Below, in pieces: positions 21,503 to 38,282 of a stretch of 64,000 bases of DNA. The position numbers and the translations under genes are program-made. Each line of letters opens with the position of its first letter. Position 1 is the first letter of the stretch. The notes under the pieces are model-generated. The model saw only the letters and a list, made by a program, of their open reading frames with translations. It ran no database searches and was not told where the DNA came from. Source of the DNA: Pseudomonas asiatica (GTDB taxonomy: Bacteria > Pseudomonadota > Gammaproteobacteria > Pseudomonadales > Pseudomonadaceae); assembly GCF_040214835.1 (NCBI RefSeq), contig NZ_CP157874.1, forward strand, positions 2,298,001 through 2,362,000, read 5' to 3'.

Positions 21503-23215
21503 TCATTCATACTCCTGCGCCCCGGCAATATGCCGCCCGGCCACATAGCCAAAGGTCAGCGCCGGGCCCAGGTTGATGCCACCCGACGGATACCAGCCGC
21601 CAAACACGCTGGCCATGTCGGTACCCGCCGCATACAGGCCAGCAATCGGCTGCCCAGCTGCATCCAGCACCCGGGCATTCCCGTCGGTGCGCAACCCGGC
21701 GAAGGTGCCAAAGCAGCCGGGCTGCACCTTCACCGCATAGAACGGCCCATGCTCGATGGGCGCCACGCAAGGGTTTGGCCCCTTGTGCTGCGGGTCACCC
21801 TGCTTGCGGTTGAACGGTGTGGAACCACGGCCGAACGCCGGGTCCTGGCCGTTGCGGGCATGGTTGTTGAAGTCGCTGACCGTGGCGCGCAACCCTACCG
21901 GGTCGATGCCGCAGGCCTCGGCCAGCTGCTCGAGGGTGGCACCCTGCTTGAGATAGCCGCTGCGCACGTGCGGCCACACCGGCAGCGGCGCCGGGCGGGC
22001 GTGGCCCAGGCCGTAGCGGCGCAGGAAGCGGTGGTCGCAGACCAGCCACGAACACACCTCTTCGCCCTGCGGCACCGCCGCGACCATCGCTGACACATAG
22101 TCGTAATAGCCATGCGCTTCGTTGACGAAACGCTTGCCGTCGGCCAACACGCCGATGATGCCCGGTTTGCCGCGTTCGATGATGTGCGGGAAGTGGCCGA
22201 CACTGCCGTCGCGGTGCGGCACTCGCGAAACCGGCGCCCAGGCCACCGGCGACTTCAGGTCGGTGGCGACCACACCGCCGGCCGATTCGCCCAGGCGCAG
22301 GCCGTCGCCCGAACAACCCTTGGGGGGCAGGGCCAGGTTGTCGTGGCCGCTGGCATCGCGCGGGAACAGTTGCCGACGGCGGGCATTGTCGTTGGGGAAA
22401 CCACCCGCCGCGAGTACCACGGCCTTGGCACGGATCAGTTGCTCGCCCTGCGGTGTAGCCACCAGCGCCCCCCGCACCTGGCCATCCTCGACCAGCAGGC
22501 GTTTGGCCGGTGCCGACTCCTGCAGGCGCACGCCCAGGTCCTGCGCCGACCTGGCCAGGCGGGCCACCAGCGCTACGCCGTTGACCAGGTGCATCGCCCG
22601 GCCATACCGGGCCAGGTGGTACAGGTGGCGGCCAAAGCGTTTGCACACGTGCAGCAAGGCCTTGGGCGAGCGGGTCATGTTGAGGAACGCGGCAAGGTCG
22701 ACACCCGCCATTATCGGCATGCCCATGAACGAAGTTTCGCGCATGGTCTTGCGCAGGCGTGGCAGCAGCGCACCGACCTCGCGGGCGTCATAGGGCGCGG
22801 CAATCACCTGGTGCCCGCCCTGGGCCGCGCCCGGTGTGTCGTCATGCATGTCGGGGATGCCGTTGCCGTCGGCAAACTGCAGCGCCGTGTGCTTTTCGAA
22901 AAACGCCACCATGTGCGGACAGGCTTCGAGAAAGGCGTCGACGCGTTCGGCGTTGTAATACGCCCCCAGTTCATTGCGCAGGTAGGTACGCGGCTGCTCG
23001 ATGTCTTCCTCGATACCGGCCCGGCGTGCCAGCGGGTTGCGCGGCACCCAGGCCCAGCCGCCGGACCAGGCGGTGGCGCCGCCGAACACTGGCTCCTTTT
23101 CCACCACGATCACCTTCTGCCCGTGCCAGGCAGCCGTCACGGCCGCAGCCAGCCCGGCGGCACCAGAACCTATGACCAGTACATCGCATTCGGTTTCGTA
23201 GGGAGCGGAAGGCAT
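21503..23215 (-). CDS. FAD-dependent dehydrogenase, fumarate-reductase/ketosteroid-dehydrogenase superfamily (paralogue 1)
   Basis: A 570-residue cytoplasmic flavoprotein. The FAD dinucleotide motif VIGSGAAGLAAAV is near residue 14, GGATAWSGGWAW follows, and the C-terminal FAD-closing segment reads GGWYPSGGINLGPALTFGYV. This layout fits FAD enzymes that add or remove hydrogens beside a carbonyl or carboxylate, such as 3-ketosteroid dehydrogenase, fumarate reductase flavoprotein and tricarballylate dehydrogenase. No heme or flavin-transfer domain is present. It is divergent from an IclR regulator, with a perfect palindrome about 22 nt upstream of the start. Two paralogues lie at 27.9 and 30 kb; this one is closest to the copy at 27.9 kb. 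The substrate is unknown. Confidence 0.83.
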   Translation of the reverse strand: MPSAPYETECDVLVIGSGAAGLAAAVTAAWHGQKVIVVEKEPVFGGATAWSGGWAWVPRNPLARRAGIEEDIEQPRTYLRNELGAYYNAERVDAFLEACPHMVAFFEKHTALQFADGNGIPDMHDDTPGAAQGGHQVIAAPYDAREVGALLPRLRKTMRETSFMGMPIMAGVDLAAFLNMTRSPKALLHVCKRFGRHLYHLARYGRAMHLVNGVALVARLARSAQDLGVRLQESAPAKRLLVEDGQVRGALVATPQGEQLIRAKAVVLAAGGFPNDNARRRQLFPRDASGHDNLALPPKGCSGDGLRLGESAGGVVATDLKSPVAWAPVSRVPHRDGSVGHFPHIIERGKPGIIGVLADGKRFVNEAHGYYDYVSAMVAAVPQGEEVCSWLVCDHRFLRRYGLGHARPAPLPVWPHVRSGYLKQGATLEQLAEACGIDPVGLRATVSDFNNHARNGQDPAFGRGSTPFNRKQGDPQHKGPNPCVAPIEHGPFYAVKVQPGCFGTFAGLRTDGNARVLDAAGQPIAGLYAAGTDMASVFGGWYPSGGINLGPALTFGYVAGRHIAGAQEYE

Positions 23216-23237
23216 TGCGGGATTCCTGTATTGTTAT

Positions 23238-23252
23238 TGGAACAAGGTTCCA
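23238..23252 (-). promoter_or_regulatory. Candidate IclR operator site 1
   Basis: Perfect palindrome TGGAAC-AAG-GTTCCA just upstream of the flavoprotein gene, in the divergent region with the IclR gene. Related sites recur at 24242 and 24276. Confidence 0.6.
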
Positions 23253-23409
23253 CATTCTTATTGGCAGCGAATCGGCCTGCAAGGGTGTGGCGGCCCTGCC
23301 GGGCAAGTAATGGGCGATAACCGGACAGTTCGTGTCGCGCTGGCTGCAGCGGCTATCGGCGGTATGGAATCATCTTCTAGAATTCGCAAAAATTTCAGGG
23401 ACCTGTGTC

Positions 23410-24186
23410 ATGGCTGGTAGTCAGATCGAACGCGCCTTCAGTCTTGTAGAAAGCCTTACCGGTGAACCGCAAGGGCTGCCGTTGCAAACCCTGGCCGAGC
23501 GCCTGGACATCCCCAAGAGCGCCACCCATCGCATGCTCACCGAGCTGGTGCGGCTGGGCTATGTGCGGCAGAACCGGGACAACAGCCGCTACCAGCTGTC
23601 GGCCAAGCTGGTGGCGCTGGGCTTCCGTTATCTTGCCAGCAGCGGTGCCGACATCATTCAGCCGATTCTCGACCGCCTGGCCCAGGACAGCGGCGAACTG
23701 GTGCGCCTTGGCGTGATCGACGGTGCTCGCCAGACCTGGATCGCCAAGTCCCAGGGCGCCCGCTCCGGGCTGCGCTACGACCCGGACATGGGCCGCGACG
23801 CACCGCTGTTCTATACCGCGTCCGGGCATGCCTGGCTGGCCAGCCTGGACGATGAGCAGGCGCTGCAGATGGTATTGCGCCAGGGCATTGCCGACCCGGC
23901 GCAGTTCGGCCCGAATGCACCACGCTCCACCGACGAGTTGCTCACCTACCTGCGCCGCGCTCGCGAGCGCGGTTATGCCTGGGTCGAGGAAACCTCGGCC
24001 ATTGGCACCTCGGCCCTGGCTGCGGTGGTGCGCCGCCCGCAAAGTGACGAGGTGATCGGTGTGCTGAGCATCGCCGGGCCCAGTGCGCGCCTGGCGCAAA
24101 GCCGCATGGCAGAACTGGCGCCGCTGTTGCTGGCGGCGGCAGAGGAACTGTCGGCGGCCAGCCGGGCCAGTGAGTTGTTCGCTTGA
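23410..24186 (+). CDS. IclR family transcriptional regulator (A)
   Basis: A 258-residue regulator. The N-terminal winged helix is seen in LPLQTLAERLDIPKSATHRM (about residues 20-40), and the C-terminal effector domain carries the IclR block YTASGHAWLASL and the GVLSIAGPSARL end. The ATG at 23410 follows AGGGAC; the open frame extends upstream but lacks family features. It lies between two targets: the divergent flavoprotein gene and the downstream oxidoreductase/isomerase pair. Near-identical palindromes stand in front of both, so it probably controls both units. Confidence 0.87.
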   Translation: MAGSQIERAFSLVESLTGEPQGLPLQTLAERLDIPKSATHRMLTELVRLGYVRQNRDNSRYQLSAKLVALGFRYLASSGADIIQPILDRLAQDSGELVRLGVIDGARQTWIAKSQGARSGLRYDPDMGRDAPLFYTASGHAWLASLDDEQALQMVLRQGIADPAQFGPNAPRSTDELLTYLRRARERGYAWVEETSAIGTSALAAVVRRPQSDEVIGVLSIAGPSARLAQSRMAELAPLLLAAAEELSAASRASELFA

Positions 24187-24241
24187 AGGTGCATTTCCGG
24201 TCGATTACCGCACACTCTGTCCTGCGGCTTCTTCTTAAAAG

Positions 24242-24290
24242 CTGAACCTGGTTCTAAATTGTCGAATGTGGATTGTGGAATCAGATTCCG
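24242..24290 (+). promoter_or_regulatory. Candidate IclR operator sites 2 and 3
   Basis: Site 2 is CTGAAC-CTG-GTTCTA (24242-24256). Site 3 is TGGAAT-CAG-ATTCCG (24276-24290). Both share the spacing and core of site 1 at 23238, and both stand before the Gfo/Idh/MocA gene. Confidence 0.6.
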
Positions 24291-24326
24291 GAATCCGCAT
24301 GACAACAATGACAAGAGGACAGGCTG

Positions 24327-25379
24327 TTGAACGCACCCCTTCGTATTGCCTTGATCGGCGCCGGCAGCATGGGCCGCCAGCATTACCAGCATTTGCTGAA
24401 TGTGCCGCAGGCCCAGCTGTGCGCTGTGGCCGACCCGGGCCCGCAGGCCGAGGCCTTTGCCGCCGAATGCGGCGTGCCCTGTTTTGCCGACCACCGCCAG
24501 ATGCTGGAGCACGCGCGCCCCGAGGCAGTGATCGTCGCCAACCCGAACAACCTGCATGTCGCCACCGCCCTGGGCTGCGTCGAGGCCGGTGTACCGGTGC
24601 TGGTCGAAAAACCGGTGGGCGTGCACCTGGATGAAGTCCGCGCGCTGGTGGAAGCCTCGCGCCGCCACGATGTGCCGGTGCTGGTCGGCCATCACCGCCG
24701 GCATAACCCGCTGATCGCCAAGGCTCACCAGGTGATTGCCGACGGCAAGCTGGGCCGACTGATCAACGTCACCGCGCTGTGGCAGTTGCAAAAGCCCGAC
24801 AGCTATTTCGACACCCCCTGGCGCCGCGAGCCGGGCGCTGGCTTCCTGCTGACCAACCTGATCCATGACCTCGACCTGCTGCGCCACCTGTGCGGCGAGG
24901 TGGTACAGGTGCAGGCATTCACCCGCAACGATGTGCGCGGTTTTGCCAACGAGGACAGCGCCGCGGTGCTACTGCAGTTCGCCAATGGAGCATTGGGCAG
25001 CCTGACTGGCTCCGACGCGGTGGCCGCGCCGTGGAGCTGGGAGCTGGACTCCGGCGAAAGCCCGGTCTACCCGCGCCAGGATGGCCAACCGTGCTACCTG
25101 CTGGCCGGCACCCAGGGGGCCCTGAGCATTCCGCAACTCAAGCGCTGGCACTACGCCGAGGTCGGGTCGGGCTGGCACACGCCGTTGTTGCAGAGCGAGG
25201 AAAGCATCCCCGCCGGCGAGGCATTGACCTTGCAGTTGCAACACTTCGTGCGGGTTGCCCGGGGTGAGCAGGCGCCACTGATCGATGCCGCCGATGGTGG
25301 CCGTACCCTGGCGCTGATCGAGGCGATCCGCCAGGCCGCGGAAACTGGCCGGGCCTGTGCGCCCGAGCACATTGCTTGA
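24327..25379 (+). CDS. Gfo/Idh/MocA family NAD(P)-dependent oxidoreductase
   Basis: A 350-residue dehydrogenase. The Rossmann motif is IALIGAGSMGRQHY at about residues 6-19, followed by the family motif VLVEKPVG, whose Lys contacts substrate and cofactor, and by LIHDLDLLRHL with the conserved Asp-His region. The start is TTG at 24327, preceded by AGAGGA; the next in-frame ATG (24369) would cut away the Rossmann glycines. Members oxidise or epimerise hydroxyl groups on sugars, inositols and other polyols. It is followed closely by a TIM-barrel isomerase, a common pairing in polyol catabolism. Putative IclR sites lie in its leader. Confidence 0.88.
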   Translation: MNAPLRIALIGAGSMGRQHYQHLLNVPQAQLCAVADPGPQAEAFAAECGVPCFADHRQMLEHARPEAVIVANPNNLHVATALGCVEAGVPVLVEKPVGVHLDEVRALVEASRRHDVPVLVGHHRRHNPLIAKAHQVIADGKLGRLINVTALWQLQKPDSYFDTPWRREPGAGFLLTNLIHDLDLLRHLCGEVVQVQAFTRNDVRGFANEDSAAVLLQFANGALGSLTGSDAVAAPWSWELDSGESPVYPRQDGQPCYLLAGTQGALSIPQLKRWHYAEVGSGWHTPLLQSEESIPAGEALTLQLQHFVRVARGEQAPLIDAADGGRTLALIEAIRQAAETGRACAPEHIA

Positions 25380-25396
25380 ATTGTCGGGTGACGATA

Positions 25397-26212
25397 ATGA
25401 CTGAACGAATTTTCTCCCTGGCGGCCCTGACGGTACTCGAGCTGTCCCCGCCGGACATGGTCGAGGCAGCAGCCCGCGCCGGTTACAGCCACGTTGGCCT
25501 GCGCCTGGTGCCCGCCACCGAGCAGGAGCAGCATTTCCCGCTGGTGGCCGATGCCGGCCTGCGCCGGCAGACCCAGGCGCGCCTGCGCGATACGGGCATC
25601 AAGGTGCTCGACCTGGAGATCCTGAGGCTTAAGCCGGAAACCTGTGTCGCCGATTTCGAGCCGATCCTGGCGGTGGGCGCCGAGCTGGGCGGCACGGAGC
25701 TGCTGGTGGCTGGCAACGACCCGGATGAAGCGCGGCTGACCGAGCGCTTTGCTGCGTTGTGTGACCTGGCGGCGGGGTATGGCATTCATCCGCACCTGGA
25801 GTTCATGCCCTGGACTGATGTGCGTGACCTGCGCCAGGCCATGCGGGTGGTGGCCAACGCCGACCGCGCCAATGGCTGTGTGCTGGTGGATGCCTTCCAC
25901 TTCAACCGCTCCGGTTCTTCGCTGGACGATCTGGCGCAACTGGCACCGCAGCGCATGCGCTATGCCCAGCTGTGCGACGTTGCCGGCCCGGTGCCGGCCG
26001 AGATGGACGAGATCCTGCGCCAGGCACGCAACGAGCGGCGCTTCCCGGGCGAGGGCGATGCCGATCTGGTCGGCCTGCTGCGCGGTTTGCCGCCAAGTGT
26101 GCCGTTGAGCCTGGAGATCCCCACACGGCAGTTGCTGGAACAGGGCATGAGCGGCGAACAGCGTGCGCGCATGGCGCTGGAGAAGGCCATGGCAGTGTTG
26201 GCCAGAGTCTGA
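25397..26212 (+). CDS. Sugar phosphate isomerase/epimerase family TIM-barrel protein
   Basis: A 271-residue protein of the xylose-isomerase-like / AP-endonuclease-2 TIM-barrel fold. Metal-binding acidic residues are seen in HLEFMPWTD, LVDAFHFNRSG and PLSLEIPTRQ. Relatives include inosose dehydratases, hydroxypyruvate isomerases and 3-dehydroshikimate dehydratases. A shikimate-dehydrogenase-like gene lies 5.5 kb away, so a dehydroshikimate-type dehydratase role is one option. The ATG at 25397 is preferred over the TTG at 25376, which overlaps the previous gene. The spacing to the Gfo/Idh/MocA gene is 17 nt, so they form one transcript. Confidence 0.82.
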   Translation: MTERIFSLAALTVLELSPPDMVEAAARAGYSHVGLRLVPATEQEQHFPLVADAGLRRQTQARLRDTGIKVLDLEILRLKPETCVADFEPILAVGAELGGTELLVAGNDPDEARLTERFAALCDLAAGYGIHPHLEFMPWTDVRDLRQAMRVVANADRANGCVLVDAFHFNRSGSSLDDLAQLAPQRMRYAQLCDVAGPVPAEMDEILRQARNERRFPGEGDADLVGLLRGLPPSVPLSLEIPTRQLLEQGMSGEQRARMALEKAMAVLARV

Positions 26213-26250
26213 TTGACAGCGCGCGGCGCATGGCACGGGCTACCGCCCGT

Positions 26251-26335
26251 GTTCGCGGGCACGCCCGCTCCCACAGGTACAGCGACAACCTCGAGAGCAA
26301 CGCTGTACCTGTGGGAGCTGGCTTGCCGGCGATGA
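26251..26335. repeat. Inverted REP pair
   Basis: GTTCGCGGGCACGCCCGCTC and a diverged inverted partner (GTGGGAGCTGGCTTGCCGGC) separate the convergent isomerase and permease genes. Confidence 0.75.
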
Positions 26336-26370
26336 GGCCGGGCAGGCAAATTACTGTTTGCTGACTGGCC

Positions 26371-26393
26371 AAAAAAAGGGCCCGCAAGGGCCC
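26371..26393 (-). terminator. Rho-independent terminator of the MFS permease unit
   Basis: On the minus strand: GGGCCC-TTGC-GGGCCC followed by seven T. This is a textbook intrinsic terminator 24 nt past the permease stop. Confidence 0.9.
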
Positions 26394-26416
26394 GTAGAGG
26401 AAAATGGTCAGCGCGT

Positions 26417-27742
26417 TCAGGCGCTCTCGATCTTGCGTGGTGCCATGAAGTACATCCACACCAGCGCCAGGAAGTACATCGCCGGGATCATGGTGAACAA
26501 AACGGCATAGTTGTTATTGGTAGCGGTCAGCACGCTACCGACGATCTGCGTCATGAACATCCCGCCAATCGCCGCGCACATGCTGCCGAAACCGAACACC
26601 GTACTCACCAGGTGCTTGGGCGTGTAGTCCATCACCAGGCTCCAGATATTCGCCGTCCATGCCTGATGCGCGCCCACCGCCAGCGAGATGGCCGCCACCG
26701 CGACCCACAGGCCACTGGCGTTGGCGGCAAAGGTGACGCTGACCATGGTGCAGGCGAAGATCAGCATCGACACCAGCCGCGCGGTGGTCGCGCGCACGCC
26801 ACGGCCGATCAGCCAGGAAGACAGGATGCCGCCGCCGATGCTGCCGAAGTCCGCCGTCAGCCAGATGATGATCAGCGGGATGCCCATCTGGGTCACGTTG
26901 ATGCCCAGGCTGTATTGCTGGTTGAGGAACGGTGGCAGCCAGTACAGGTAGAACCAGAACACCGGTGCGGTAATCGCGTAGGCCACCGCGAAGGCCCAGG
27001 TGCCACGCAGGCGCAGGATACGGCTGAACGGCACGCGGGTTGGCTCGGGCTCGTCATCCTGCTGGATGTACTCCACCTCGCTCTGGCGCACGCGCGGGTG
27101 ATCTTCAGGGTTGTAGTACTTCAACACCCACAGCACCACCCACACCAGGCCCAGGCTGCCCATGGCGATGAACGCGGCCTGCCAGCCCCACACGGCCAGA
27201 ATCATCGGCAGCAGGGCCGGTGTGACCATGGCGCCGACGTTGGTGCCGGCATTGAACAGGCCGGTGGCGATGGCCCGCTCGCCAGCCGGGAACCACAGGC
27301 GCACGGTCTTCACGCAGGCCGGGTAGTTGGCGGCCTCGGTCAGGCCGAGGATGAAGCGGCAGACCATGAAGCCAGCGGCCGAGGTGGCCAGGCCGTGAGC
27401 GCCGGTGGCCAGGCTCCACAGCAGCACGGCGAAGAAGAACGCGCGCTTCACCCCGACCTTGTCGATCAGCCGGCCCTGCAGCAGGAAGCCGACCGCGTAG
27501 CCGACCTGAAACCAGAAGTTGATGTTGGCGTAGTCCATCGCCGTCCAGCTCATTTCCTTGGCCAGGACGGGCTGCATGATGCCGAGCGCGGCACGGTCGA
27601 TGTAGTTCAGGGTGGTGGCGAAGAACACCAGGGCGAGCATGCCCCAACGGGTCTTGCCGACGCCGAAGGCGCCGCGAAGCTTGTCGCCGATCGAACCCTG
27701 GGGCATCCGGGGGGCGGCGGGGGTGATCTTGGAGTGGTTCAT
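26417..27742 (-). CDS. MFS transporter (hexuronate/galactonate-like)
   Basis: A 441-residue inner-membrane permease with about 12 helices, of the anion:cation symporter branch. The first helix is followed by FFATTLNYIDRAALG, and the second carries the motif-A-like GRLIDKVGVKRAF. It resembles ExuT/DgoT-type sugar-acid carriers. The ATG at 27742 was chosen because the longer frame adds no family-like sequence. It is last in a leftward group of catabolic genes, but a palindrome about 135 nt upstream suggests its own promoter. It is the likely importer of the substrate handled by the neighbouring flavoproteins. Confidence 0.87.
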   Translation of the reverse strand: MNHSKITPAAPRMPQGSIGDKLRGAFGVGKTRWGMLALVFFATTLNYIDRAALGIMQPVLAKEMSWTAMDYANINFWFQVGYAVGFLLQGRLIDKVGVKRAFFFAVLLWSLATGAHGLATSAAGFMVCRFILGLTEAANYPACVKTVRLWFPAGERAIATGLFNAGTNVGAMVTPALLPMILAVWGWQAAFIAMGSLGLVWVVLWVLKYYNPEDHPRVRQSEVEYIQQDDEPEPTRVPFSRILRLRGTWAFAVAYAITAPVFWFYLYWLPPFLNQQYSLGINVTQMGIPLIIIWLTADFGSIGGGILSSWLIGRGVRATTARLVSMLIFACTMVSVTFAANASGLWVAVAAISLAVGAHQAWTANIWSLVMDYTPKHLVSTVFGFGSMCAAIGGMFMTQIVGSVLTATNNNYAVLFTMIPAMYFLALVWMYFMAPRKIESA

Positions 27743-27876
27743 AAACTGCTCGATTCTTGAAATTGTATTCAGCTGCGGTGCTGCAAGTACGTGACCGGTT
27801 CCCAGGCAGGGGGCACGCAAGGCCGGTGCATGGTGAGCAGTGAAGGCGGCAGCGTCAATTAAAGGGAGGGGCTAGT

Positions 27877-27891
27877 GTTCGGTTACCGAAC
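27877..27891 (-). promoter_or_regulatory. Candidate operator upstream of the MFS gene
   Basis: Perfect palindrome GTTCGG-TTA-CCGAAC in the 190-nt gap upstream of the permease. The GTTCG/CGAAC arms resemble boxes of aromatic-pathway IclR regulators (PcaU/PobR type). Confidence 0.45.
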
Positions 27892-27933
27892 GGTTGCGTT
27901 GGGCCTGCGTGCGAGGCAAGGGGCAACGTGATT

Positions 27934-29613
27934 TCAGGTGGTCAAGGTACTCAACGCTCTACCAGCCAGATAACCGAATGTCATCCCCGGCCCCAGTGTG
28001 ATACCGCCACTCGGGTAGTGCCCGCCCATCACGCTGTGCATGTCGTTGCCCACCGCATACAGCCCGGGGATCGGCCGCGCATTGCGGTCCAGTACCCGGG
28101 CCGAGGCATCCGTGCCCAGGCCGGCGAAGGTACCCAGGCTGCCCGGCAACAGTTTCACTGCGTGGAACGGCCCGTGCAGCAGTGGCCGCAGCGACGGATT
28201 GGGGGCTTGCGACGGCTCGCCCTGCGCCCGGTTGTAGGCCGATACACCGCGCTGGAATAGCGGGTCTTCACCCCGGGTTGCATGGCGGTTGAAGCCGTCC
28301 ACCGTGCGCTGCAACTGCTCGACGTCGATCCCGCAGCGCTGCGCCAGTTCCTCCAGCGTGCGACCGCTGTGCAGGTAACCGCAGCGTTGATAGTGACGGG
28401 TGGGGAAAGGGAAGGGCTTGGCCCAGCCGATACCATAGCGACGTTGCGCGGCATGGTCGCAGATCAGCCAGGCTTCCGGCGCTTCACCCTGCGGCGTGGC
28501 GGCGAACAGTGCGTTCATGAAGTCGTGGTAGCAATCGGCCTCGTTGACGAAGCGCCGGCCATCGCCGCGCACGGCGATGAAGCCGGGCTTGGCGCGATCG
28601 ATCAAGTGCGGGAAATGGCCGAAACTGCCATCGCTGCGCGGCACCCGCGACACAGGTGCCCAGGCACCTGCATGGGTCGCAGTCGCCTGGACCATGCCAC
28701 CGGCCTGTTCGCCCAGGCGCAGGCCGTCGCCGCTGTTTTCCCTGGGGGCTGCGGAGTAATGCTGGGTACCGTCCGGCGCATGCGGCATCAGGTGCGCGAT
28801 GCGCTGGCGATCATGTGCAAAGCCACCGCAGGCCAGCACCACACCGCGGCGGGCGTGGATCATCTGGCCGTCGGCAAACTGTGCGCCGCTGACCCGGCCT
28901 TCGCCCAGCAGGCGGCTGGCCGGCTTGTCGGTCAGTAGCGTCACGCCAAGGTCCAGGGCGCTGCGCAGCAGCCGTGCCACCAGGGCGTTGCCATTGACCA
29001 GTTGCAGGCTGCGGCGGTGCAGCAGCAGGTCGCGGCCATGGCGCAGCAGGCGTTTGCCCACATGCAGCGCGGCCGTGGGCGAGCGTGTGGCGTTGAAGAA
29101 GGCGGCCATGTCGGCGCCGCCGGCAATGCCCATGCCGGCCAGGCTGACGATGTCCAGCGGTGGGCGCAGCTTGTGCAGCCAGGGCCCGAGCAGGCGCCCG
29201 TCGTATGGCAGGGCGCACAGCGAACGACCACCGCGCGTGCTGCCATCGCCCTCGCGCATGTCGGGCATGCGGCTGCCGCACTGGAACTGCACGGCGGTGT
29301 GTTGCTGGAAGAACGCCACCATCTCCGGGCCATGGTGCAGGAAGGCGCGCTGGCGCGGGTCCAGTTCGCTGACATGGGTTTGCGCGCGCAGGTAGCGCTC
29401 CGGGGCATCGTCGGTCTCGACGATGCCTTCGGCAATGGCCAGCGGGTTGCGCGGTATCCACAGCCAGCCCCCCGACCAGGCGCTGGTGCCGCCCAGTTGG
29501 CTGGCTTTTTCCGCGACGATCACCTGCAGGCCGTGATGGGCGGCAGTAACGGCGGCAGCCAGGCCAGAGGCACCGGAGCCGATGACGAGTACGTCACATT
29601 CGAGGGGTTGCAT
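27934..29613 (-). CDS. FAD-dependent dehydrogenase (paralogue 2)
   Basis: A 559-residue flavoprotein of the same family as the gene at 21.5 kb. The FAD motif is VIGSGASGLAAAV; GGTSAWSGGWLWIPRNPLA is almost the same as paralogue 1, and WAPVSRVPRSDGSFGHFPH matches closely too. The C-terminal FAD loop is GGHYPSGGITLGPGMTFGY. It is predicted to be cytoplasmic and to dehydrogenate or reduce a C-C bond next to a carbonyl or carboxylate. It starts 34 nt after the NIPSNAP gene and is probably in the same operon. Having two close copies plus a third suggests successive steps on related intermediates or different stereoisomers. Confidence 0.83.
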   Translation of the reverse strand: MQPLECDVLVIGSGASGLAAAVTAAHHGLQVIVAEKASQLGGTSAWSGGWLWIPRNPLAIAEGIVETDDAPERYLRAQTHVSELDPRQRAFLHHGPEMVAFFQQHTAVQFQCGSRMPDMREGDGSTRGGRSLCALPYDGRLLGPWLHKLRPPLDIVSLAGMGIAGGADMAAFFNATRSPTAALHVGKRLLRHGRDLLLHRRSLQLVNGNALVARLLRSALDLGVTLLTDKPASRLLGEGRVSGAQFADGQMIHARRGVVLACGGFAHDRQRIAHLMPHAPDGTQHYSAAPRENSGDGLRLGEQAGGMVQATATHAGAWAPVSRVPRSDGSFGHFPHLIDRAKPGFIAVRGDGRRFVNEADCYHDFMNALFAATPQGEAPEAWLICDHAAQRRYGIGWAKPFPFPTRHYQRCGYLHSGRTLEELAQRCGIDVEQLQRTVDGFNRHATRGEDPLFQRGVSAYNRAQGEPSQAPNPSLRPLLHGPFHAVKLLPGSLGTFAGLGTDASARVLDRNARPIPGLYAVGNDMHSVMGGHYPSGGITLGPGMTFGYLAGRALSTLTT

Positions 29614-29646
29614 GGTGGGGTTCCGCTCAGGCGTTGGAGGAAGGTT

Positions 29647-29967
29647 TTACTGCAGCGGCGAAAAACCGGTGGGCCGCAGCATTCGCGACTGCAAATGCAG
29701 TACCGCGCCCAGCTCGCGGTTGCGCCTTGAGAACTCTGCCCAACGGGGGTCCGCTGCCATGGCTGCGCGGCGTGCCATGCGTTCGTCGAGGCTGGCATAG
29801 CCCCAGATATGCACCACCTGGTTGACCTCGCCGAACTCGCTGGTGAAAAAGCCGACCAGGTTACCGAGATGCTCGCTTTGCACCTCCAGCGCGTGGCTTT
29901 GGTACAGGCTCAGCCAGTCGGCCATTTTCAGTGGGTCGAGGGTGTAGGTTCTCAGTTCGTAGTACAT
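29647..29967 (-). CDS. NIPSNAP family protein
   Basis: A 106-residue protein with the NIPSNAP ferredoxin-like dimeric fold: it begins MYYELRTYTL and has QVVHIWGYASLDER in the middle. The family is often linked to aromatic or alicyclic catabolism clusters, but its reactions are mostly unknown. The start overlaps the end of the upstream flavoprotein gene by 16 nt, with GGAGA upstream, so it is translationally coupled. It is likely a small accessory enzyme or binding protein of the same pathway. Confidence 0.83.
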   Translation of the reverse strand: MYYELRTYTLDPLKMADWLSLYQSHALEVQSEHLGNLVGFFTSEFGEVNQVVHIWGYASLDERMARRAAMAADPRWAEFSRRNRELGAVLHLQSRMLRPTGFSPLQ

Positions 29968-31685
29968 GCTGGGGTCTCCATTTGGGTGGTTGGCGCCTGC
30001 AGGCGCGCGGCGATGTGGTTGGCAGCGAGCCAGCCGAAGGTGAGGGCAGGGCCCAGGGTGATACCGGGGCCGGGGTAGGTGCCTTTCATCAGCGAGTTCA
30101 TGTCGTTGCCGACTGCATACAGCCCGGCAATCGGCTGGCCATCGCGGTTCAGCACGTTGGCCTGGGCGTTGGTCACCAGGCCGCGGGCTGAGCCAAGGTC
30201 GCCGGTGTGGATGCGGATGGCGTAGAACGGGCCGCTGGTCAGCGGCGCCAGGCATGGGTTGGGCGTGTGTTGCGGGTCGCCCATGTAGCGGTTGTAGCTG
30301 TTGCCGCCTTTGCCGAACGCGCGGTCGATGCCGTTGCGGGCGTCGGCGTTGAACTGCTCCAGGGTCTGCATGAATACCTGTGGGTCGACACCAATGGTCT
30401 TGGCCAGTGCCTGCGCTGTTGCGGCGCGGTGCAGGTAGCCGGCATGGATCAACGCCTGGTTGTCCACCGGCTTTGGCCGCGCCAGGCCCAGGCCGTAGCG
30501 GTTCATCGCTTCGGCATCGCAGACCAGCCAGCAGCTGGCGATGCCTTTGGCGAACATGGTCTGCACGAAGTGGTGGTAGGAATCGGACTCGTTGACGAAG
30601 CGTCGCCCGTCCGGGCCCACCGCGATCACCCCTGGCTTGGCGCGGTCGGTGACCAGGTGCGGGAAGCGCTCACGCTCGCCACTGGCATGGCGCAGTTCCG
30701 AAACCGGTGCCCAGAAGAAGTTGGCCACCAGGCCCTCACCCTGGGCAGCGGCCACGGCTTGGCCAAGGCGCAGGGCAGCGCCGTCATTTGTGGGCGGTGA
30801 CATGGTCAGGTGCGGCGCCTGCCGGGCCGGCCGGTAGCTGTCGGCGAGCGCGCCTGCAGCGAACCCGCCCATGGCGCACACCACACCGCCCCGGGCCAGC
30901 ACCCGTTCACGGCGCCCTTCGCGTTGCACCACCACGCCGGTGACCACGCCGCGTTCGACGATCAGCTCCAGGGCTTCGCTGCGCAACCACAGCTGCGTGC
31001 CATGGGCGAAGGCGCTGCTGGCCAGGCGGGCGATCAAGGCGTTGCCGGTGGTAAGGCGGGTGCCACGCGGATGATGCAGGCGGTCCCGCGCGTAACGCGC
31101 CATCAGCTTGAGGCAATGCCACAGCGACCGGGGCGAGCGGCGAATACTGAGAAAGTGCTGGATATCCACGCGGTTGACCATCATGCCGCCGAACAGCAAC
31201 ATGCCGGGCGGCGGCATCTGCAGGTCCTTGAAGTGCGAGCCGAGCTGCCTGCCGTCGTACTCGACCATCTCCAGCGCCCGGCCAAACTGGGTGGCACCGG
31301 GGGCGTCCGGGTAGTAGTCCGGCGAATGCGGGCGCAGGGCGTAGCGCAGTTCGGTGTTCTGCTCCAGCCAGCGCAGCGCCTGGTGGCCATGCTCGATGAA
31401 GGCGTCGACCAGCGCGGGGGCATAGCCGTCGCCGATGACCTGCCTGAGGTAGGTGCGAATGGCCTCGGGGGAATCCACCGCACCAGCGGCGCGGGCTTGA
31501 TCAGTACCATAGAGCCACACCGCCCCACCGGAAATTGCCGAGGTACCGCCAAAGTGCTCGGCCTTTTCCACCACCAGCACTTTCAGCCCCCGGCGGGCGG
31601 CGGTGGCGGCAGCGGTAAGGCCACCGGCGCCGCTGCCCAGCACGACCAGGTCAAAGTTGTGTTGCGTATGTTCATGTGTCGGCAT
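29952..31685 (-). CDS. FAD-dependent dehydrogenase (paralogue 3)
   Basis: A 577-residue flavoprotein of the fumarate-reductase/ketosteroid-dehydrogenase superfamily. The FAD motif is VVLGSGAGGLTAAATAA, then GGTSAISGGAVWL; the C-terminal loop is GTYPGPGITLGPALTFGWL. It is the most diverged of the three copies (WAPVSELRHAS where the others have WAPVSRVP). The ATG at 31685 begins only 5 nt after the shikimate-dehydrogenase-like stop, which shows co-transcription. The frame continues upstream into that gene and is not used. The substrate is unknown; a hydroaromatic or cyclohexanone-type ring is one hypothesis. Confidence 0.83.
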   Translation of the reverse strand: MPTHEHTQHNFDLVVLGSGAGGLTAAATAARRGLKVLVVEKAEHFGGTSAISGGAVWLYGTDQARAAGAVDSPEAIRTYLRQVIGDGYAPALVDAFIEHGHQALRWLEQNTELRYALRPHSPDYYPDAPGATQFGRALEMVEYDGRQLGSHFKDLQMPPPGMLLFGGMMVNRVDIQHFLSIRRSPRSLWHCLKLMARYARDRLHHPRGTRLTTGNALIARLASSAFAHGTQLWLRSEALELIVERGVVTGVVVQREGRRERVLARGGVVCAMGGFAAGALADSYRPARQAPHLTMSPPTNDGAALRLGQAVAAAQGEGLVANFFWAPVSELRHASGERERFPHLVTDRAKPGVIAVGPDGRRFVNESDSYHHFVQTMFAKGIASCWLVCDAEAMNRYGLGLARPKPVDNQALIHAGYLHRAATAQALAKTIGVDPQVFMQTLEQFNADARNGIDRAFGKGGNSYNRYMGDPQHTPNPCLAPLTSGPFYAIRIHTGDLGSARGLVTNAQANVLNRDGQPIAGLYAVGNDMNSLMKGTYPGPGITLGPALTFGWLAANHIAARLQAPTTQMETPACTTN

Positions 31686-31689
31686 GGCT

Positions 31690-32499
31690 TCAGATCTCCA
31701 GCGGCGTGACGCCCATGAAGGCGCCCAGGTGGCCGAGTTGGGCGAAGGCCATTTCCGGGCCGGTCTGGACCGCGCAGCCAACCTGGCGTGCCCGGTTCAG
31801 CAGCGGGGTGATCTCGGGCGAGGTGACCACATCGGCGACCAGGGTTTCGGGTTGCAAGGTGGCGAGCAGGGCGGCAGGCAGTGGCAGCTCCGCGCTACCG
31901 CCCATGCCGACAGGGGAGGCGTTGACCAACAGGTCGAAGCCTTCCAGCCCGTCGACCCGGGTGGCGATTTCGACCGTGGGGAAGGCATTGCCGAGCAGCT
32001 CGCACACAGCGCCCATGCGCGCTGTGCTGGGGTCGCTGAGGGTGACGCTGGCGATGCCGGCCTCGCCCAGTGCATAGGCAATGGCACTGCCGACCCCGCC
32101 GCAACCGATTACCAACGCACGCTTGCCGGCCGGCTCGAAGCCATGTTTGCGCGCAGCACCGAGGAAGCCGGCACCGTCCACGTTGTCGCCCAGCAGTCGC
32201 CCGTCACGCTCTCGGCGAATCACATTGACCGAGCCCAGCGCGGCTGCGCGCTCGCTCAGGCTATCAAGGCGGCTGGCCAGGGCCTGCTTGTACGGCACGG
32301 TGACCACGCAACCGCGCAGGTTCTGCCAGCCGCGCAGGGTGCCGGCGAAGGTATCCAGCGCGGCCTCATGCAGATCGATGGGCAGCATGGCGAGGTTGCA
32401 GTTGTTGTTGGCGAACCAGGTGTTGAAGTTTTCGGGGGACTTCACCTGGGCAATGGGCGAACCGACGATGGCGACCAGTTCAGTGGAACCACGAATCAT
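31690..32499 (-). CDS. Shikimate dehydrogenase-like oxidoreductase
   Basis: A 269-residue member of the AroE family. The catalytic Lys is in VTVPYK, the catalytic Asp in NVDGAGF, and the NADP-site glycine motif reads VIGCGGVGSAIA. The substrate-binding motif, normally HSKSP in AroE, is QVKSP here: the first of two serines that hold the shikimate carboxylate is Val. It may therefore use quinate or another hydroxy acid rather than shikimate. It might correspond to the RifI2-type family member described in P. putida, from memory. An excellent AAGGAGG lies 6-7 nt before the ATG. It heads a leftward operon and faces an IclR gene, so it is catabolic rather than biosynthetic. Confidence 0.85.
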   Translation of the reverse strand: MIRGSTELVAIVGSPIAQVKSPENFNTWFANNNCNLAMLPIDLHEAALDTFAGTLRGWQNLRGCVVTVPYKQALASRLDSLSERAAALGSVNVIRRERDGRLLGDNVDGAGFLGAARKHGFEPAGKRALVIGCGGVGSAIAYALGEAGIASVTLSDPSTARMGAVCELLGNAFPTVEIATRVDGLEGFDLLVNASPVGMGGSAELPLPAALLATLQPETLVADVVTSPEITPLLNRARQVGCAVQTGPEMAFAQLGHLGAFMGVTPLEI

Positions 32500-32581
32500 G
32501 CTGACCTCCTTATTGGCGTTGTTATGCAGGCCAAGGGTGAGGCAAGGGGGCGTGGGCAACAATGCGTTGATCGGGCGTTTA

Positions 32582-32596
32582 ATGCGATAATCGCAT
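32582..32596. promoter_or_regulatory. Candidate PcaR-like operator
   Basis: Perfect palindrome ATGCGAT-A-ATCGCAT in the divergent promoter region. It is close to the PcaR box I recall (GTTCGATAATCGCAC). A further half-site, TTATCGCG, lies at about 32608. Confidence 0.55.
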
Positions 32597-32653
32597 CACT
32601 GATCCGGTTATCGCGGTAATCGGCTGTATTTGCCCTGCTTGCGAGTCGAATAG

Positions 32654-33424
32654 ATGAACACCCCCGCTATCCACCCCCGTGACCTGATCGCCGGCTTGCA
32701 GAAGGGCCTGGCGCTCATGCAGCTGTTCAGCGCCGAGCAGCCGCGCCTTAGCGTGCCGCAGGCGGCCAGGTTGTCTGGCCTTACCCCCAGTGCCGCGCGG
32801 CGGTTTCTGTTGACCTTGGTGCACGAAGGGTTTGCCGAAACCGACAGCCGTGAGTACTGGCTTACGCCCAAGGCGCTGCGCCTTGGCCAGGCGTATGTGG
32901 ACTCGGCACAACTGCCGCGCATGCTGCGGCCGATCGTCGAGCAGGTGGCGCGGCAGACCCAGGAGCATGTGTCGGTAGGTACCCGTGATGGTGACGAGAT
33001 CATCCACCTGGTACGTAGCCGCTACAGCCATGTGGCCTCGTTGTCGATCCGGCCGGGTTCGCGGGTGCCGATGTATTGCACCGCCGGCGGGCGCGTCTGG
33101 CTGGCCTGGCTGGATGAGGGGGAGCGGGATGCCTACTTTGCGCGTAACCCGCTGCGAGGGTTGACGCCTTATACGCAGACGGACCGGTTACAGCTGGAGG
33201 CGGAGTTGCTGCGGGTGAAGGAGCAGGGGTTCTGTATCGTGGACCAGGAGTATGAAATCGGCATGCGCGTGCTGGGTGTGCCACTGCTGGACCGGGCTGG
33301 CCGGCTGAAAGCGACGTTGACCATCACCACCCATGCTTCGCGGTTGAGTGTGGATGAAATACGCTTGCGGTATCTGCCGACCCTGTACGAGGCCCAGGCG
33401 TTGTTGCGGCCGGTGCTGGATTGA
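32654..33424 (+). CDS. IclR family transcriptional regulator (B), PcaR-like
   Basis: A 256-residue regulator of the PcaR/PobR branch of IclR. The winged helix is in LSVPQAARLSGLTPSAARRF (about residues 32-52), and the effector domain has the block YCTAGGRVWLAWL and ends in VDEIRLRYLPTLYEAQALL. This branch typically responds to aromatic or hydroaromatic acids such as protocatechuate pathway intermediates. It is divergent from the shikimate-dehydrogenase-like operon with a PcaR-box-like palindrome between them, so it is the likely regulator of that operon. It is a single-gene unit followed by a REP pair. Confidence 0.87.
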   Translation: MNTPAIHPRDLIAGLQKGLALMQLFSAEQPRLSVPQAARLSGLTPSAARRFLLTLVHEGFAETDSREYWLTPKALRLGQAYVDSAQLPRMLRPIVEQVARQTQEHVSVGTRDGDEIIHLVRSRYSHVASLSIRPGSRVPMYCTAGGRVWLAWLDEGERDAYFARNPLRGLTPYTQTDRLQLEAELLRVKEQGFCIVDQEYEIGMRVLGVPLLDRAGRLKATLTITTHASRLSVDEIRLRYLPTLYEAQALLRPVLD

Positions 33425-33653: not shown

Positions 33654-34697
33654 TTATCGCTCGATCTGGCGGTTCCAGCGCGCGTTCCATTCGGGGCGCT
33701 GGGTGTTGACCTGGTCCCAGTCGATGGTCACGGCAGTCTGCAGGTAGGTCTGCATGGCTTCGACCTGGCCACGGGTCTTGTCACTGGTAGGTGTGTTGGG
33801 GTTGGACGGGATCTGGTCACCCAGCTCCAGGGCCGGCGACTGCGCCTCGGGGCTGAGCAGGAACTCGGCGAGCTTCTGCGCAAGCTCCGGCTGGTCGTTG
33901 TTGGCCGTGACGCATTCGGCCTGGTTGAGCACCACGGCACCTTCCTTGGGCGCGGCGTACTCCACCGGGATGCCTTTGAGCTTCAGCGCCGTCACCTGGG
34001 TGGGGGTGAGCGGGAACAGCGCGGCTTCGTCGGTTTGCACCATTTCCGAGAGCTTGGCCGAATTGGGGATGTACTCCAGCACGTTCGGGCCCACGTTCTT
34101 CTGCCAGGCCGTGAAGCCCGGGTTGACATCGGTATCGCTGCCGCCGTGCAGGCGGTTGTACATCAGGAAACCATGCAGGCCGAAGGTGGACGATGCCATC
34201 GACTGGAACACCACCTTGTCCTTGAAGCGCGGGTCGGCCAGGTCGTTCCAGGAGGTGGGCGCTGCCCAGCCATTGGCCTTGAACAGGCGGCTGTTGTAGG
34301 CAAGCCCGGTCACGCCCAGGCTGACTGCGGCGGCCTTGTCCTTGATCAGGGCCTTTTCCGGCAACTGGGCCAAGGTCGGGTTGGGTTTGAGTGTGCTGCA
34401 CAGGCCCATGCCGATGGCGCGGTACATGATGCCGTCATCCAGCACCATCACATGGATCGACGGCTTGTTCGGCGTGGCCTGGACCTTGGCCAGGATGTCG
34501 GCCGAGGTGCCGGGGACAATCACCACCTTCACGCCGTTGGCCTGCTCGAACTTTGGCAGGATATTGTCGCTGAACAGCCGTTCCATGGTGCCGCCGTTCA
34601 TGCCCAGGTAAAGCGTGGGTTGGGCCATGGCGGGCAGGCAGGCGAACAGGCCGGGCACGGTGCAGAACAGGGCGAGCAAACGTTGCTTGTGCGTCAT
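33654..34697 (-). CDS. Periplasmic solute-binding protein (PotD/PotF-like)
   Basis: A 347-residue ABC-importer binding protein. A signal peptide (MTHKQRLLALFCTVPGLFAC, cut after AMA) is followed by LYLGMNGGTMERLFSDNILP and a spermidine/putrescine-binding-type two-lobe domain with LGVTGLAYNSRLF and SWNDLADPRFKDKV. It is the last gene of a seven-gene operon; its ATG overlaps the stop of the upstream oxidase gene by 4 nt (ATGA). Binding proteins of this type take polyamines, opines or other small cations. The partner dehydrogenase suggests an amino acid derivative or opine. Confidence 0.87.
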   Translation of the reverse strand: MTHKQRLLALFCTVPGLFACLPAMAQPTLYLGMNGGTMERLFSDNILPKFEQANGVKVVIVPGTSADILAKVQATPNKPSIHVMVLDDGIMYRAIGMGLCSTLKPNPTLAQLPEKALIKDKAAAVSLGVTGLAYNSRLFKANGWAAPTSWNDLADPRFKDKVVFQSMASSTFGLHGFLMYNRLHGGSDTDVNPGFTAWQKNVGPNVLEYIPNSAKLSEMVQTDEAALFPLTPTQVTALKLKGIPVEYAAPKEGAVVLNQAECVTANNDQPELAQKLAEFLLSPEAQSPALELGDQIPSNPNTPTSDKTRGQVEAMQTYLQTAVTIDWDQVNTQRPEWNARWNRQIER

Positions 34698-35827
34698 GAC
34701 AGGTTTTCCTTGTGGTGGTTGGGCTGAAAGCGGTTGATGGAAAAAGCCGCAAGGCTGAGTGCCGGCGCGCCGTGCAGGATGCATTGCGCCAACGCTTCAC
34801 CGGCAGCCGGGCCTATCTGGAAGCCGGCACCGGCAAAGCCGAAACCATGCAGCAGGCCGGGCTGGTGCAGGCTGGGGCCGAGCACCGGTTCGTCATCGGG
34901 CAGGTAGCCTTCGGTGCCGCTCCAGGTGCGAATGGCCTGGGCGCCGGCCAGTGCCGGGTACAGCTCGGTGGCATTGCGCAGGATGTCGAGCACTGCGGCC
35001 TGGCCCGGGCGTGCGGTGGTCGGGGTAAGGGCAAAACCGCGCCCGCCGCCCAGCACGCAGTTGCCACGCGCCACCTGGCGGGCGTAGATGCCGCCGCCTT
35101 CGACCCCGGTGCTGGCGGTCATGAACAGCGGCAGCGGCTCGGTCACCAGCATGGCGGGGTGGGCCGCGGTCAGCGGCACCGGCTCGCCGAACTGCTCGGC
35201 CAGTTGCGCCGACCAGGCGCCGGCGCAATTCAACAGCCAGGGCGCCTTGAAGCCTTGGCCGCTGCTGGTGCTTACGCTGAAACGGTGGCCGTCGTGCCCC
35301 ACCTCCAGCACTTTGCACTGCTCATGCACCTGGGCGCCGCTGCGTCTGGCCGCCTGGGCGAAGGCCGGTGACACCAGCCGTGGGTTGGCATGGCCGTCCT
35401 CGGGGCAGTACGAGGCGCCGACAGCGATATCGCCCACCCAGGGGAAGCGCTGGCGCAGTTCGCGTCGTTCAAGCAGTTGCAGGCGAAGGTCAAAAGCCTG
35501 GGTACGCCGGGCATAGGCCTTCAAGGCATCGAAGTCGGTTTCGCTGCGGGCCAGCTTCAGGTGGCCGCTGCGGGCGTATTCGCCATCGATGCCGATCCAA
35601 TCGCGCAGATTCCCCCAGATGGCATGGGCGCGCATCGACAACGGCAGCTGGGCCAACGAGCGGCCCTGGCGGCGCACACCGCCGTAGTTCACCCCGCTGG
35701 AGTGCGAGCCGCAGAAGTCGCGTTCCAGCAATGCCACTTGCCGACCAGCGCGGGCCAGGGTCAAGGCCGCGCTGCTGCCGATGATGCCGCCGCCGACGAT
35801 GATGGCGTCCACTTCGATCAACTTCAT
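34694..35827 (-). CDS. FAD-dependent oxidoreductase, beta-subunit type (HcnC/OoxB-like, DAO family)
   Basis: A 377-residue protein of the D-amino acid oxidase/glycine oxidase family. The FAD motif AIIVGGGIIGSSAALTL is at the N-terminus, and the C-terminal family block reads GEALAQCILHG after HGFGFAGAGFQIGP. It matches the small catalytic flavin subunit of heterotrimeric dehydrogenases such as HCN synthase (HcnC), opine oxidase (OoxB) and D-hydroxyproline dehydrogenase. It overlaps its neighbours on both sides by ATGA junctions. It likely oxidises a C-N bond of an imported amino compound, passing electrons to the alpha and gamma subunits. Confidence 0.85.
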   Translation of the reverse strand: MKLIEVDAIIVGGGIIGSSAALTLARAGRQVALLERDFCGSHSSGVNYGGVRRQGRSLAQLPLSMRAHAIWGNLRDWIGIDGEYARSGHLKLARSETDFDALKAYARRTQAFDLRLQLLERRELRQRFPWVGDIAVGASYCPEDGHANPRLVSPAFAQAARRSGAQVHEQCKVLEVGHDGHRFSVSTSSGQGFKAPWLLNCAGAWSAQLAEQFGEPVPLTAAHPAMLVTEPLPLFMTASTGVEGGGIYARQVARGNCVLGGGRGFALTPTTARPGQAAVLDILRNATELYPALAGAQAIRTWSGTEGYLPDDEPVLGPSLHQPGLLHGFGFAGAGFQIGPAAGEALAQCILHGAPALSLAAFSINRFQPNHHKENLS

Positions 35828-38278: not shown

Positions 38279-38282
38279 CGGT

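Follow-up and report, generated by a model that had tools for sequence, protein, structure and literature searches.

Two separately regulated gene modules of Pseudomonas asiatica that probably feed hydroaromatic acids into the protocatechuate branch

A gene cluster at positions 21503-33424 of a 64,000-nucleotide stretch of Pseudomonas asiatica DNA (the window, positions 2298001-2362000 of a one-contig 5.85 Mb genome) encodes three paralogous flavin adenine dinucleotide (FAD) proteins, here FAD1, FAD2, and FAD3, beside a set of putative dehydrogenases, a TIM barrel, a permease, and two IclR regulators. We propose that these genes form two separately regulated modules, which probably feed hydroaromatic carboxylic acids—cyclohexane or cyclohexene polyol acids—into the protocatechuate branch of the beta-ketoadipate pathway. 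This reading of the sequence draws on protein families and their catalytic residues, the order of the genes, operator-like sites, co-occurrence across genomes, and shared neighbourhoods with qui and pca genes; beyond these, we infer the substrates, the order of the steps, the effectors of the regulators, and the role of the NIPSNAP protein.

A first-pass annotation, made from the DNA letters alone, had described three flavoproteins of one superfamily with these partner genes. All genes that it named were found where it placed them, and Pfam supports the assignments of NIPSNAP, MFS, Gfo/Idh/MocA, the xylose-isomerase-like TIM barrel, Shikimate_dh_N, and both IclR proteins. In module A, a divergent IclR2 faces RifI2, FAD3, NIPSNAP, and FAD2, followed by the MFS gene. 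The four genes from RifI2 to FAD2 are almost contiguous on the minus strand (RifI2 and FAD3 are 4 bases apart, FAD3 and NIPSNAP overlap by 16 bases, and 33 bases separate NIPSNAP from FAD2), with the MFS gene about 190 bases further. Module B consists of a divergent FAD1 and the series IclR1-Gfo-TIM barrel (23410-26212). The features are as follows.

21503-23215, minus strand: FAD1, predicted KstD/ChcC2-type flavoprotein desaturase of module B (Pfam FAD_binding_2; NF004789 over cut-off; residues)
23238-23252: TGGAACAAGGTTCCA, possible IclR1 operator (resembles the group-2 IclR motif)
23410-24186, plus strand: IclR1, IclR-family regulator (Pfam; below the PcaR/PcaU/PobR cut-off)
24351-25379, plus strand, start perhaps 24327: Gfo, NAD-dependent dehydrogenase of the Gfo/Idh/MocA family (Pfam)
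25397-26212, plus strand: TIM barrel, probably a metal-dependent isomerase or dehydratase, like Lmo2234, IolI, and the QuiC dehydratase domain (Pfam, xylose-isomerase-like)
26417-27742, minus strand: MFS permease (best model TIGR00893, below cut-off)
27934-29613, minus strand: FAD2, predicted KstD/ChcC2-type desaturase of module A (Pfam, AlphaFold2, Foldseek, residues)
29647-29967, minus strand: NIPSNAP-family small protein, overlapping the 3' end of FAD3 (Pfam)
29952-31685, minus strand: FAD3, more diverged predicted desaturase with the full KstD residue set (Pfam, model scores, residues)
31690-32499, minus strand: RifI2-type protein of the shikimate dehydrogenase family (near-identical to PDB 4k28)
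32583-32595: TGCGATTATCGCA, likely IclR2 operator, a PcaR-like palindrome (conservation; likeness to the consensus)
32654-33424, plus strand: IclR2, regulator of the PcaR/PcaU/PobR group of IclR proteins (313.7 bits against a cut-off of 284.75)

The locus had also been called an island. Its composition does not differ from that of the window at large, in which no tRNA was detected, so a foreign genomic island was ruled out and the word can stand here for a gene cluster, not for a compositionally foreign element.

Flavoprotein active sites and structural relatives

Each of the three flavoproteins matches Pfam FAD_binding_2 (325-371 bits). Within the genome, FAD1 shares 55% identity with FAD2 and 42% with FAD3, and because its next match reaches just 31% over 371 residues (54 bits), the three can be considered the only close paralogues, not a chance grouping. 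Copy 3 is thus indeed the more diverged, as first described, and the blocks AWSGGW and WAPVSRVP that had been noted for copies 1 and 2 are present in both. The best model for all three is PRK06134 (cut-off 747 bits), above which FAD1 and FAD2 score and below which FAD3 falls at 644. Among models of named function, FAD1 and FAD2 come closest to ChcC2, a 4-oxocyclohex-2-ene-1-carboxylate 5-dehydrogenase (NF053677; 521.8 and 503 bits, below the cut-off of 900), with steroid models at 297-422 bits. FAD3 is about equally near to ChcC2 (445 bits) and to a steroid model (452 bits), and all three lie far below the cut-off of the ChcC1 model (NF053676; 320-336 against 1000 bits).

Four catalytic residues were mapped by hand from an alignment, in KstD1 numbering, with the roles of Tyr318, Tyr487, Gly491, and Tyr119 taken from passages of PMC5348764, in which Tyr119 joins Tyr318 in proton uptake. 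Across 111 flavoprotein rows, window copies included, Tyr318 is kept in every one; 109 rows also keep Tyr487 and Gly491, and the other two, of FAD1, have a gap there. FAD1, FAD2, and FAD3 of the window keep all three residues. Position 119 instead varies between groups: in the window it is Tyr in FAD3 only and Met in FAD1 and FAD2, while across the survey it is Tyr in 39/39 rows of the FAD3 group and Met, Ile, or Phe in 59/59 rows of FAD1 orthologues and the FAD2 group. Distant FAD1-like rows are mixed (Tyr in 8/13; Thr, Phe, or Ile in 5/13).

The closest solved relatives of the flavoproteins are 3-ketosteroid delta-1-dehydrogenases. An AlphaFold2 model of FAD2 (pLDDT 90.9), searched with Foldseek, ranked the ketosteroid dehydrogenases 7p18 and 4c3x first, cyclohexanone dehydrogenase 8am3 next, and urocanate- and fumarate-type enzymes after; FAD2 is 30-34% identical to KstD1 and 7p18 and 23% to 8am3. 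The comparison of structure and active site that had been suggested as a check on the annotation thus places FAD2 nearest to ketosteroid and then cyclohexanone dehydrogenases, ahead of the fumarate type. Given the retention of the KstD residues and this ranking, ketone alpha,beta-desaturation is the likely chemistry of FAD1-3, with two active-site classes, and the original suggestion of desaturation next to a carbonyl is backed by both the residues and the nearest solved relatives. The three proteins share their fold with KstD1, AcmB, and 8am3, together with three of the four KstD catalytic residues in all copies and all four in FAD3; they differ from those enzymes in gene context and in the lack of Tyr119 in FAD1 and FAD2.

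In a midpoint-rooted tree, whose rows include no characterised enzyme, all of the quinate-linked flavoproteins included fall within the FAD1 clade (support 100/99), with FAD2 in a separate clade (94/82). Three FAD3-like rows (G466, G451, and G128) join FAD3 (98/92), and the FAD1/FAD2-type row of G466 joins FAD2 (88/82).

RifI2, the TIM barrel, and the two regulators

RifI2 aligns near-identically with chain residues 1-269 of PDB 4k28 (524.6 bits), placing it in the RifI2 class, and its best score on the NCBIfam shikimate dehydrogenase equivalog models (163.7 bits, cut-off 252) sets it apart from true AroE or QuiB. The best named relatives are those of P. inefficax and P. pudica, which, together with the likeness to 4k28, points to a genome of the P. 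putida type. The 4k28 enzyme, which we take to be from P. putida, is essentially the same protein, placed here in a conserved desaturase operon. Peek et al. reportedly found in 2013 that RifI2 is NAD-dependent with low activity on shikimate; we know of no earlier assignment of its pathway partners or physiological role. If residue positions and roles are assumed to follow E. coli AroE, the catalytic Lys and Asp and the shikimate-site Thr, Asn, and Gln are kept in 40/40 RifI2 rows (at least 55% identity, own copy included), and the first carboxylate-site Ser (the Ser14 position), a Ser in the genome's own AroE candidate, is Val in all 40. This combination of retained shikimate-site residues and a Ser-to-Val exchange would fit a shikimate-like substrate with an altered acid end. 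At two loci, L200 and L233, RifI2 orthologues (61% and 59% identity) adjoin a shikimate-transporter-like MFS gene (67% and 33% identical to its counterpart at the P. citronellolis locus described below) with no flavoprotein nearby, a context hinting at a shikimate-like RifI2 substrate. Trees of RifI2 and of the TIM barrel, with long branches and numerous open forks, were set aside.

The TIM barrel has the QuiC-type metal ligand set Glu, Asp, Gln, and Glu, as aligned by eye to 5hmq, which we take to be QuiC1 and whose aligned residues are presumably its metal ligands. Among 18 homologues, E135, D165, and E240 are invariant and Q191 is nearly so. On the full QuiC model, the protein scores 36.4 bits.

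The first-pass annotation had pointed to PcaR-type IclR proteins as sensors of aromatic acids. Of the two regulators, IclR2 is of this type, exceeding the cut-off of TIGR02431 (PcaR/PcaU/PobR; 313.7 against 284.75 bits), and IclR1 is not (117.4 bits). Of 39 related stretches, 34 carry the candidate IclR2 operator, TGCGATTATCGCA, without a change; as TGCGATNATCGCA it occurs once in the genome, the reversed control giving no match. Regulators of this group are expected to bind a TCGATWATCGSA-type palindrome; compared by eye with the P. putida PcaR consensus given in PMC8222616, the site, in the promoter region of IclR2, agrees at 11 of the 12 core positions. Next to it, an additional GCGAT half-site is also conserved, as passages of the same source describe for PcaU and PobR. 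The candidate IclR1 operator, TGGAACAAGGTTCCA, is the sole perfect match in the window and belongs to a motif type resembling the group-2 IclR class set out in part of PMC8222616. Its TGGAA and TTC columns are conserved across 16 intergenic regions, and the site is exact within the FAD1-IclR1 gap in 8 of 20 stretches. In L083 and L228, a perfect TGGAACNNNGTTCCA also stands between IclR1 and Gfo, possibly as a second IclR1 site; L228 carries one in the FAD1-IclR1 gap as well.

Distribution and gene neighbourhoods in relatives

We surveyed 149 Pseudomonas genomes, with counts and Fisher tests that ignore phylogenetic relatedness; distance counts refer to 20 kilobases (kb) or less and score pairs on different contigs as misses. 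FAD1 orthologues (at least 70% identity, two of them partial) occur in 46 genomes, and a TIM barrel match (43-100% identity) in 47, among them all 46 with FAD1. The two genes are close together in 41/46 genomes, with quiC close to TIM in 33/47 and to FAD1 in 26/46. We relied on distance to quiC because its presence alone, in 123 of the 149 genomes, is uninformative. RifI2 is rarer (22 genomes), and FAD1 accompanies it in 20 of these, against 26 of the 127 genomes without RifI2. RifI2 and FAD1 are close in 9/22, a lower bound, since nine more genomes have the pair on different contigs or lack FAD1. In a sample of 398 genomes from the phylum, FAD2-like proteins were found in 27, QuiC-like proteins in 66, and both in 22, the two genes lying within 20 kb in 5 of the 26 genomes other than our own.

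Thirty named loci (L062-L091), mainly from Pseudomonas, with Azotobacter, one labelled Pantoea, and one uncultured Pluralibacter, show how stable module A is: IclR2, RifI2, NIPSNAP, and FAD2 are present in 30/30 and FAD3 in 29/30, with an MFS gene of the window's type in 15 and a TIM gene in 13. The locus labelled Pantoea sp. Ap-967 (L083) has module genes 77-92% identical to Pseudomonas ones and may reflect a wrong label or gene transfer.

The neighbourhoods of these relatives link the modules to quinate and protocatechuate genes. In P. citronellolis (L087), the row runs FAD1, aldo-keto reductase, aroQ (over cut-off), a shikimate dehydrogenase-family gene (over the NF009201 cut-off, below that of the NAD quinate/shikimate model), one further gene, IclR2, and RifI2-FAD3-NIPSNAP-FAD2, and continues with a TetR-like gene, quiC (1319.6 bits, cut-off 1200), and a shikimate-transporter-like MFS gene. 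By homology, P. delhiensis (L088) and P. jinjuensis (L080) are alike, the latter showing MFS, TIM, and Gfo but lacking FAD1 in the stretch covered. Three genomes (G012, G051, and G086) hold both modules, aroQ, a shikimate dehydrogenase (SDH) gene, and quiC in one block. The G012 block comprises aroQ, SDH, IclR2, RifI2, FAD3, NIPSNAP, FAD2, quiC, TIM, Gfo, IclR1, and FAD1, with other genes interspersed, and PcaC/PcaD-, PcaB-, and PcaF-like genes follow.

From other genera we examined 20 stretches from 19 genomes. Six combine a FAD1-type gene and the TIM barrel with quiC and/or a shikimate dehydrogenase-family gene, and two (G466 and G451) carry RifI2-like, FAD1/FAD2-type, FAD3-type, NIPSNAP, TIM, and IclR genes together. 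In G451 this set is followed by pcaF, CoA transferase genes of the pcaJ/scoB and pcaI/scoA families, and pobA, all four over their cut-offs. In G527, the neighbours of FAD1-TIM include quiC-like, SDH-like, and aroQ-like genes, pcaF and a fused pcaDC (both over cut-off), and a pcaB-like gene that scores below its cut-off. In G063, pobA is part of the block. Through this synteny with quiC, aroQ, shikimate dehydrogenase-family, pca, and pobA genes in other genomes, the initial suggestion of a route from a hydroaromatic acid into a central aromatic pathway gains support.

Several further observations concern the surroundings of these genes. In L223 and L227, the interval from the tripartite (Tct-type) transporter genes to FAD1 encodes an OprD porin and an HBM-domain methyl-accepting chemotaxis protein, which hints that the cells may move towards the substrate by chemotaxis. 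In all 12 of the Burkholderia, Caballeronia, Paraburkholderia, and Cupriavidus loci L097-L108, a RifI2-like dehydrogenase occurs with no match to FAD1-3 and with varying sets of Gfo, TIM barrel, IclR, intradiol dioxygenase, Fe-alcohol dehydrogenase, SnoaL, and alpha/beta hydrolase genes (dioxygenase and Fe-alcohol dehydrogenase were Pfam-typed in L105 only); these clusters perhaps encode a separate, hydroxyquinol-type route. Beside module A in the window, 33654-40168 holds genes for a solute-binding protein, a DAO-type oxidase, and a Pyr_redox_2/BFD protein, with further co-directional genes following. It resembles an uptake-and-oxidation set and does not adjoin module A in every relative. Farther along, 44040-57749 is a bacterial cellulose synthesis cluster (BcsE, BcsG, BcsQ, a BcsA-like PilZ glycosyltransferase, BcsB, a family 8 glycosyl hydrolase, and BcsC).

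Proposed routes and competing explanations

In module A, the MFS permease would import the acid and RifI2 would oxidise a ring alcohol to the ketone with NAD+, after which FAD3 and FAD2 would each remove H2 next to the carbonyl. In each desaturase, Tyr and Gly would promote enolisation, a Tyr would accept the alpha proton, and FAD the beta hydride. The resulting dienone would tautomerise to a phenol, such as protocatechuate or 4-hydroxybenzoate, and IclR2 would sense an aromatic or pathway acid and control the unit from TGCGATTATCGCA. In module B, Gfo, or a shikimate/quinate dehydrogenase, would make the ketone and FAD1 the enone, which the QuiC/IolI-like TIM barrel would isomerise or dehydrate, with dehydroshikimate or protocatechuate as the end point. 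This module looks like a supplement to quinate and shikimate use for an acid without the ring double bond, and our best guess at the substrates would be dihydroshikimate-like or mono- and dihydroxycyclohexane-carboxylates. The first-pass annotation had envisaged one stepwise pathway through all three flavoproteins. This finds no support, since module A is optional (22 of the 149 genomes) and separately regulated, with its own regulator and operator-like site, while FAD1-TIM occurs in 46 genomes, often near quinate genes.

Two known systems come close. The chc route of Sinomonas cyclohexanicum likewise proceeds, according to passages of PMC9795900, which refers to Yamamoto et al. (2021), from alcohol to ring ketone and ends with two consecutive desaturases (ChcC1 and ChcC2, of the same flavoprotein subfamily) that yield 4-hydroxybenzoate. 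Module A fits a chc-like aromatisation because the conversion of a hydroxycyclohexanecarboxylate to a hydroxybenzoate needs one alcohol dehydrogenation and two desaturations next to the ketone. Unlike in the chc system, the flavoproteins here lie well below the ChcC1 and ChcC2 cut-offs, the presumed ketone maker is a RifI-type relative of shikimate dehydrogenase, NIPSNAP, TIM barrel, and Gfo are extra, and no P450 is found among the cluster genes. Quinate and shikimate catabolism (AroQ, SDH/QuiB, and QuiC) is syntenic in many genomes, shares a TIM barrel like the QuiC dehydratase domain, and likely leads to the same end product; the addition here is FAD1-3 and RifI2. The classical quinate/shikimate route needs no flavin desaturase. 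Tentatively, with somewhat more doubt than confidence, we suggest that in many soil bacteria the quinate genes form the centre of a broader system for hydroaromatic acids. In its undescribed branch, a RifI-type entry dehydrogenase, paired Tyr119/Met119 desaturases, NIPSNAP, and a QuiC-like barrel would aromatise saturated or partly saturated ring acids of the dihydroshikimate or hydroxycyclohexanecarboxylate type to protocatechuate.

Several observations weigh against the proposed link of both modules to protocatechuate. RifI2 and quiC are within 20 kb in just 3 of the 22 genomes and on the same contig in 11; in our own genome quiC is 90-100 kb away and the nearest relative of shikimate/quinate dehydrogenase about 230 kb, so that the quinate link rests on relatives. 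Locus L073 (P. capeferrum WCS358) lacks FAD3, with RifI2 directly followed by NIPSNAP (around 10868-10953); therefore both desaturases are not always needed, and this locus is a natural test of FAD3 essentiality. Of the stretches from other genera, nine hold a flavoprotein without partners, two just FAD2 and the NIPSNAP-cluster gene near respiratory genes, and one RifI2 with a shikimate-transporter-like gene and no flavoprotein; in G023 and G146, too, no flavoprotein gene neighbours RifI2. The FAD1/FAD2-type row of G451 branches at the base of the FAD1 clade (95/88), not in the FAD2 clade, and the blocks of G051 and G086 lack Gfo. The single expression result found in the literature for PP2604, taken here as the orthologue of the MFS permease, is its induction by DIMBOA, according to passages of PMC3335876; DIMBOA is not hydroaromatic. 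Finally, the TIM fold is equally close to IolI, with IolI 1i60, Lmo2234, and 5hmq tied as structural neighbours.

This last tie also speaks for an explanation that we consider unlikely, namely that the compound broken down by module B, and perhaps also by A, is a cyclitol or sugar acid such as an inositol, quercitol, or deoxy-inosose instead of a hydroaromatic carboxylic acid, with an IolG-like Gfo and an IolI/IolE-like TIM barrel. The best NCBIfam model for Gfo is indeed inositol 2-dehydrogenase, at 149.9 bits against a cut-off of 355, and the Burkholderiales relatives of RifI2, Gfo, and TIM adjoin an intradiol dioxygenase and an Fe-alcohol dehydrogenase with no FAD1-3 match. On the contrary, TIM and FAD1 track quiC and shikimate dehydrogenase-family genes, the TIM residue opposite the IolI His is Gln, as in 5hmq and Lmo2234, and Gfo is absent from five of the six FAD1-TIM clusters outside the genus.

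Two other explanations seem less probable still. The first would have one or more flavoproteins oxidise 3-dehydroshikimate at C4-C5 to gallate, as a side branch of quinate and shikimate use, with RifI2 producing dehydroshikimate out of an isomer of shikimate. This chemistry would suit a KstD-type desaturase, which would work beside the C3 ketone, and RifI2 in L200 and L233 stands beside the shikimate-transporter-like gene without a flavoprotein; gallate formation, however, needs one desaturase and module A has two, and no gallate ring-cleavage gene is found among the annotated neighbours, many neighbours being unannotated. The second, of about the same low probability, holds that two unrelated catabolic operons are chance neighbours with no common pathway. 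The regulators and operator-like sites do differ, as do the distributions (46 against 22 of 149), and RifI2 is close to FAD1 in 9/22 genomes; yet the enrichment of FAD1 among RifI2 genomes (with relatedness ignored), the shared blocks with quinate genes in G012, G051, and G086, and the combination of an SDH-like gene, TIM, two flavoprotein types, and NIPSNAP in G466 and G451 argue against it. That the three flavoproteins are steroid or terpenoid ring desaturases is very improbable despite their closest solved relatives, as they reach at most 452 bits on three named steroid-dehydrogenase NCBIfam models with cut-offs of 788-793, and the annotated part of their neighbourhoods holds quinate and protocatechuate genes and no steroid gene. 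Steroid- and fumarate-type assignments of the flavoproteins were rejected on model scores, active-site residues, and structural ranking.

The module genes presumably correspond to PP_2600-PP_2609 of P. putida KT2440, and the listings of literature searches on those tags, RifI2, quinate/shikimate random-barcode transposon sequencing (RB-TnSeq), hydroaromatics, and dihydroshikimate showed no description of the pathway proposed here. Of the papers listed for the tags, PMC3335876 concerns P. putida and the others have unrelated titles. The proposal gives a pathway setting to the solved enzyme RifI2 and to three flavoproteins for which we found no assigned role, in a group of bacteria, the P. putida type, that is widely used in laboratory work and engineering. 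It points to hydroaromatic plant acids other than quinate and shikimate as a common food of bacteria, and the desaturases could serve as aromatising catalysts.

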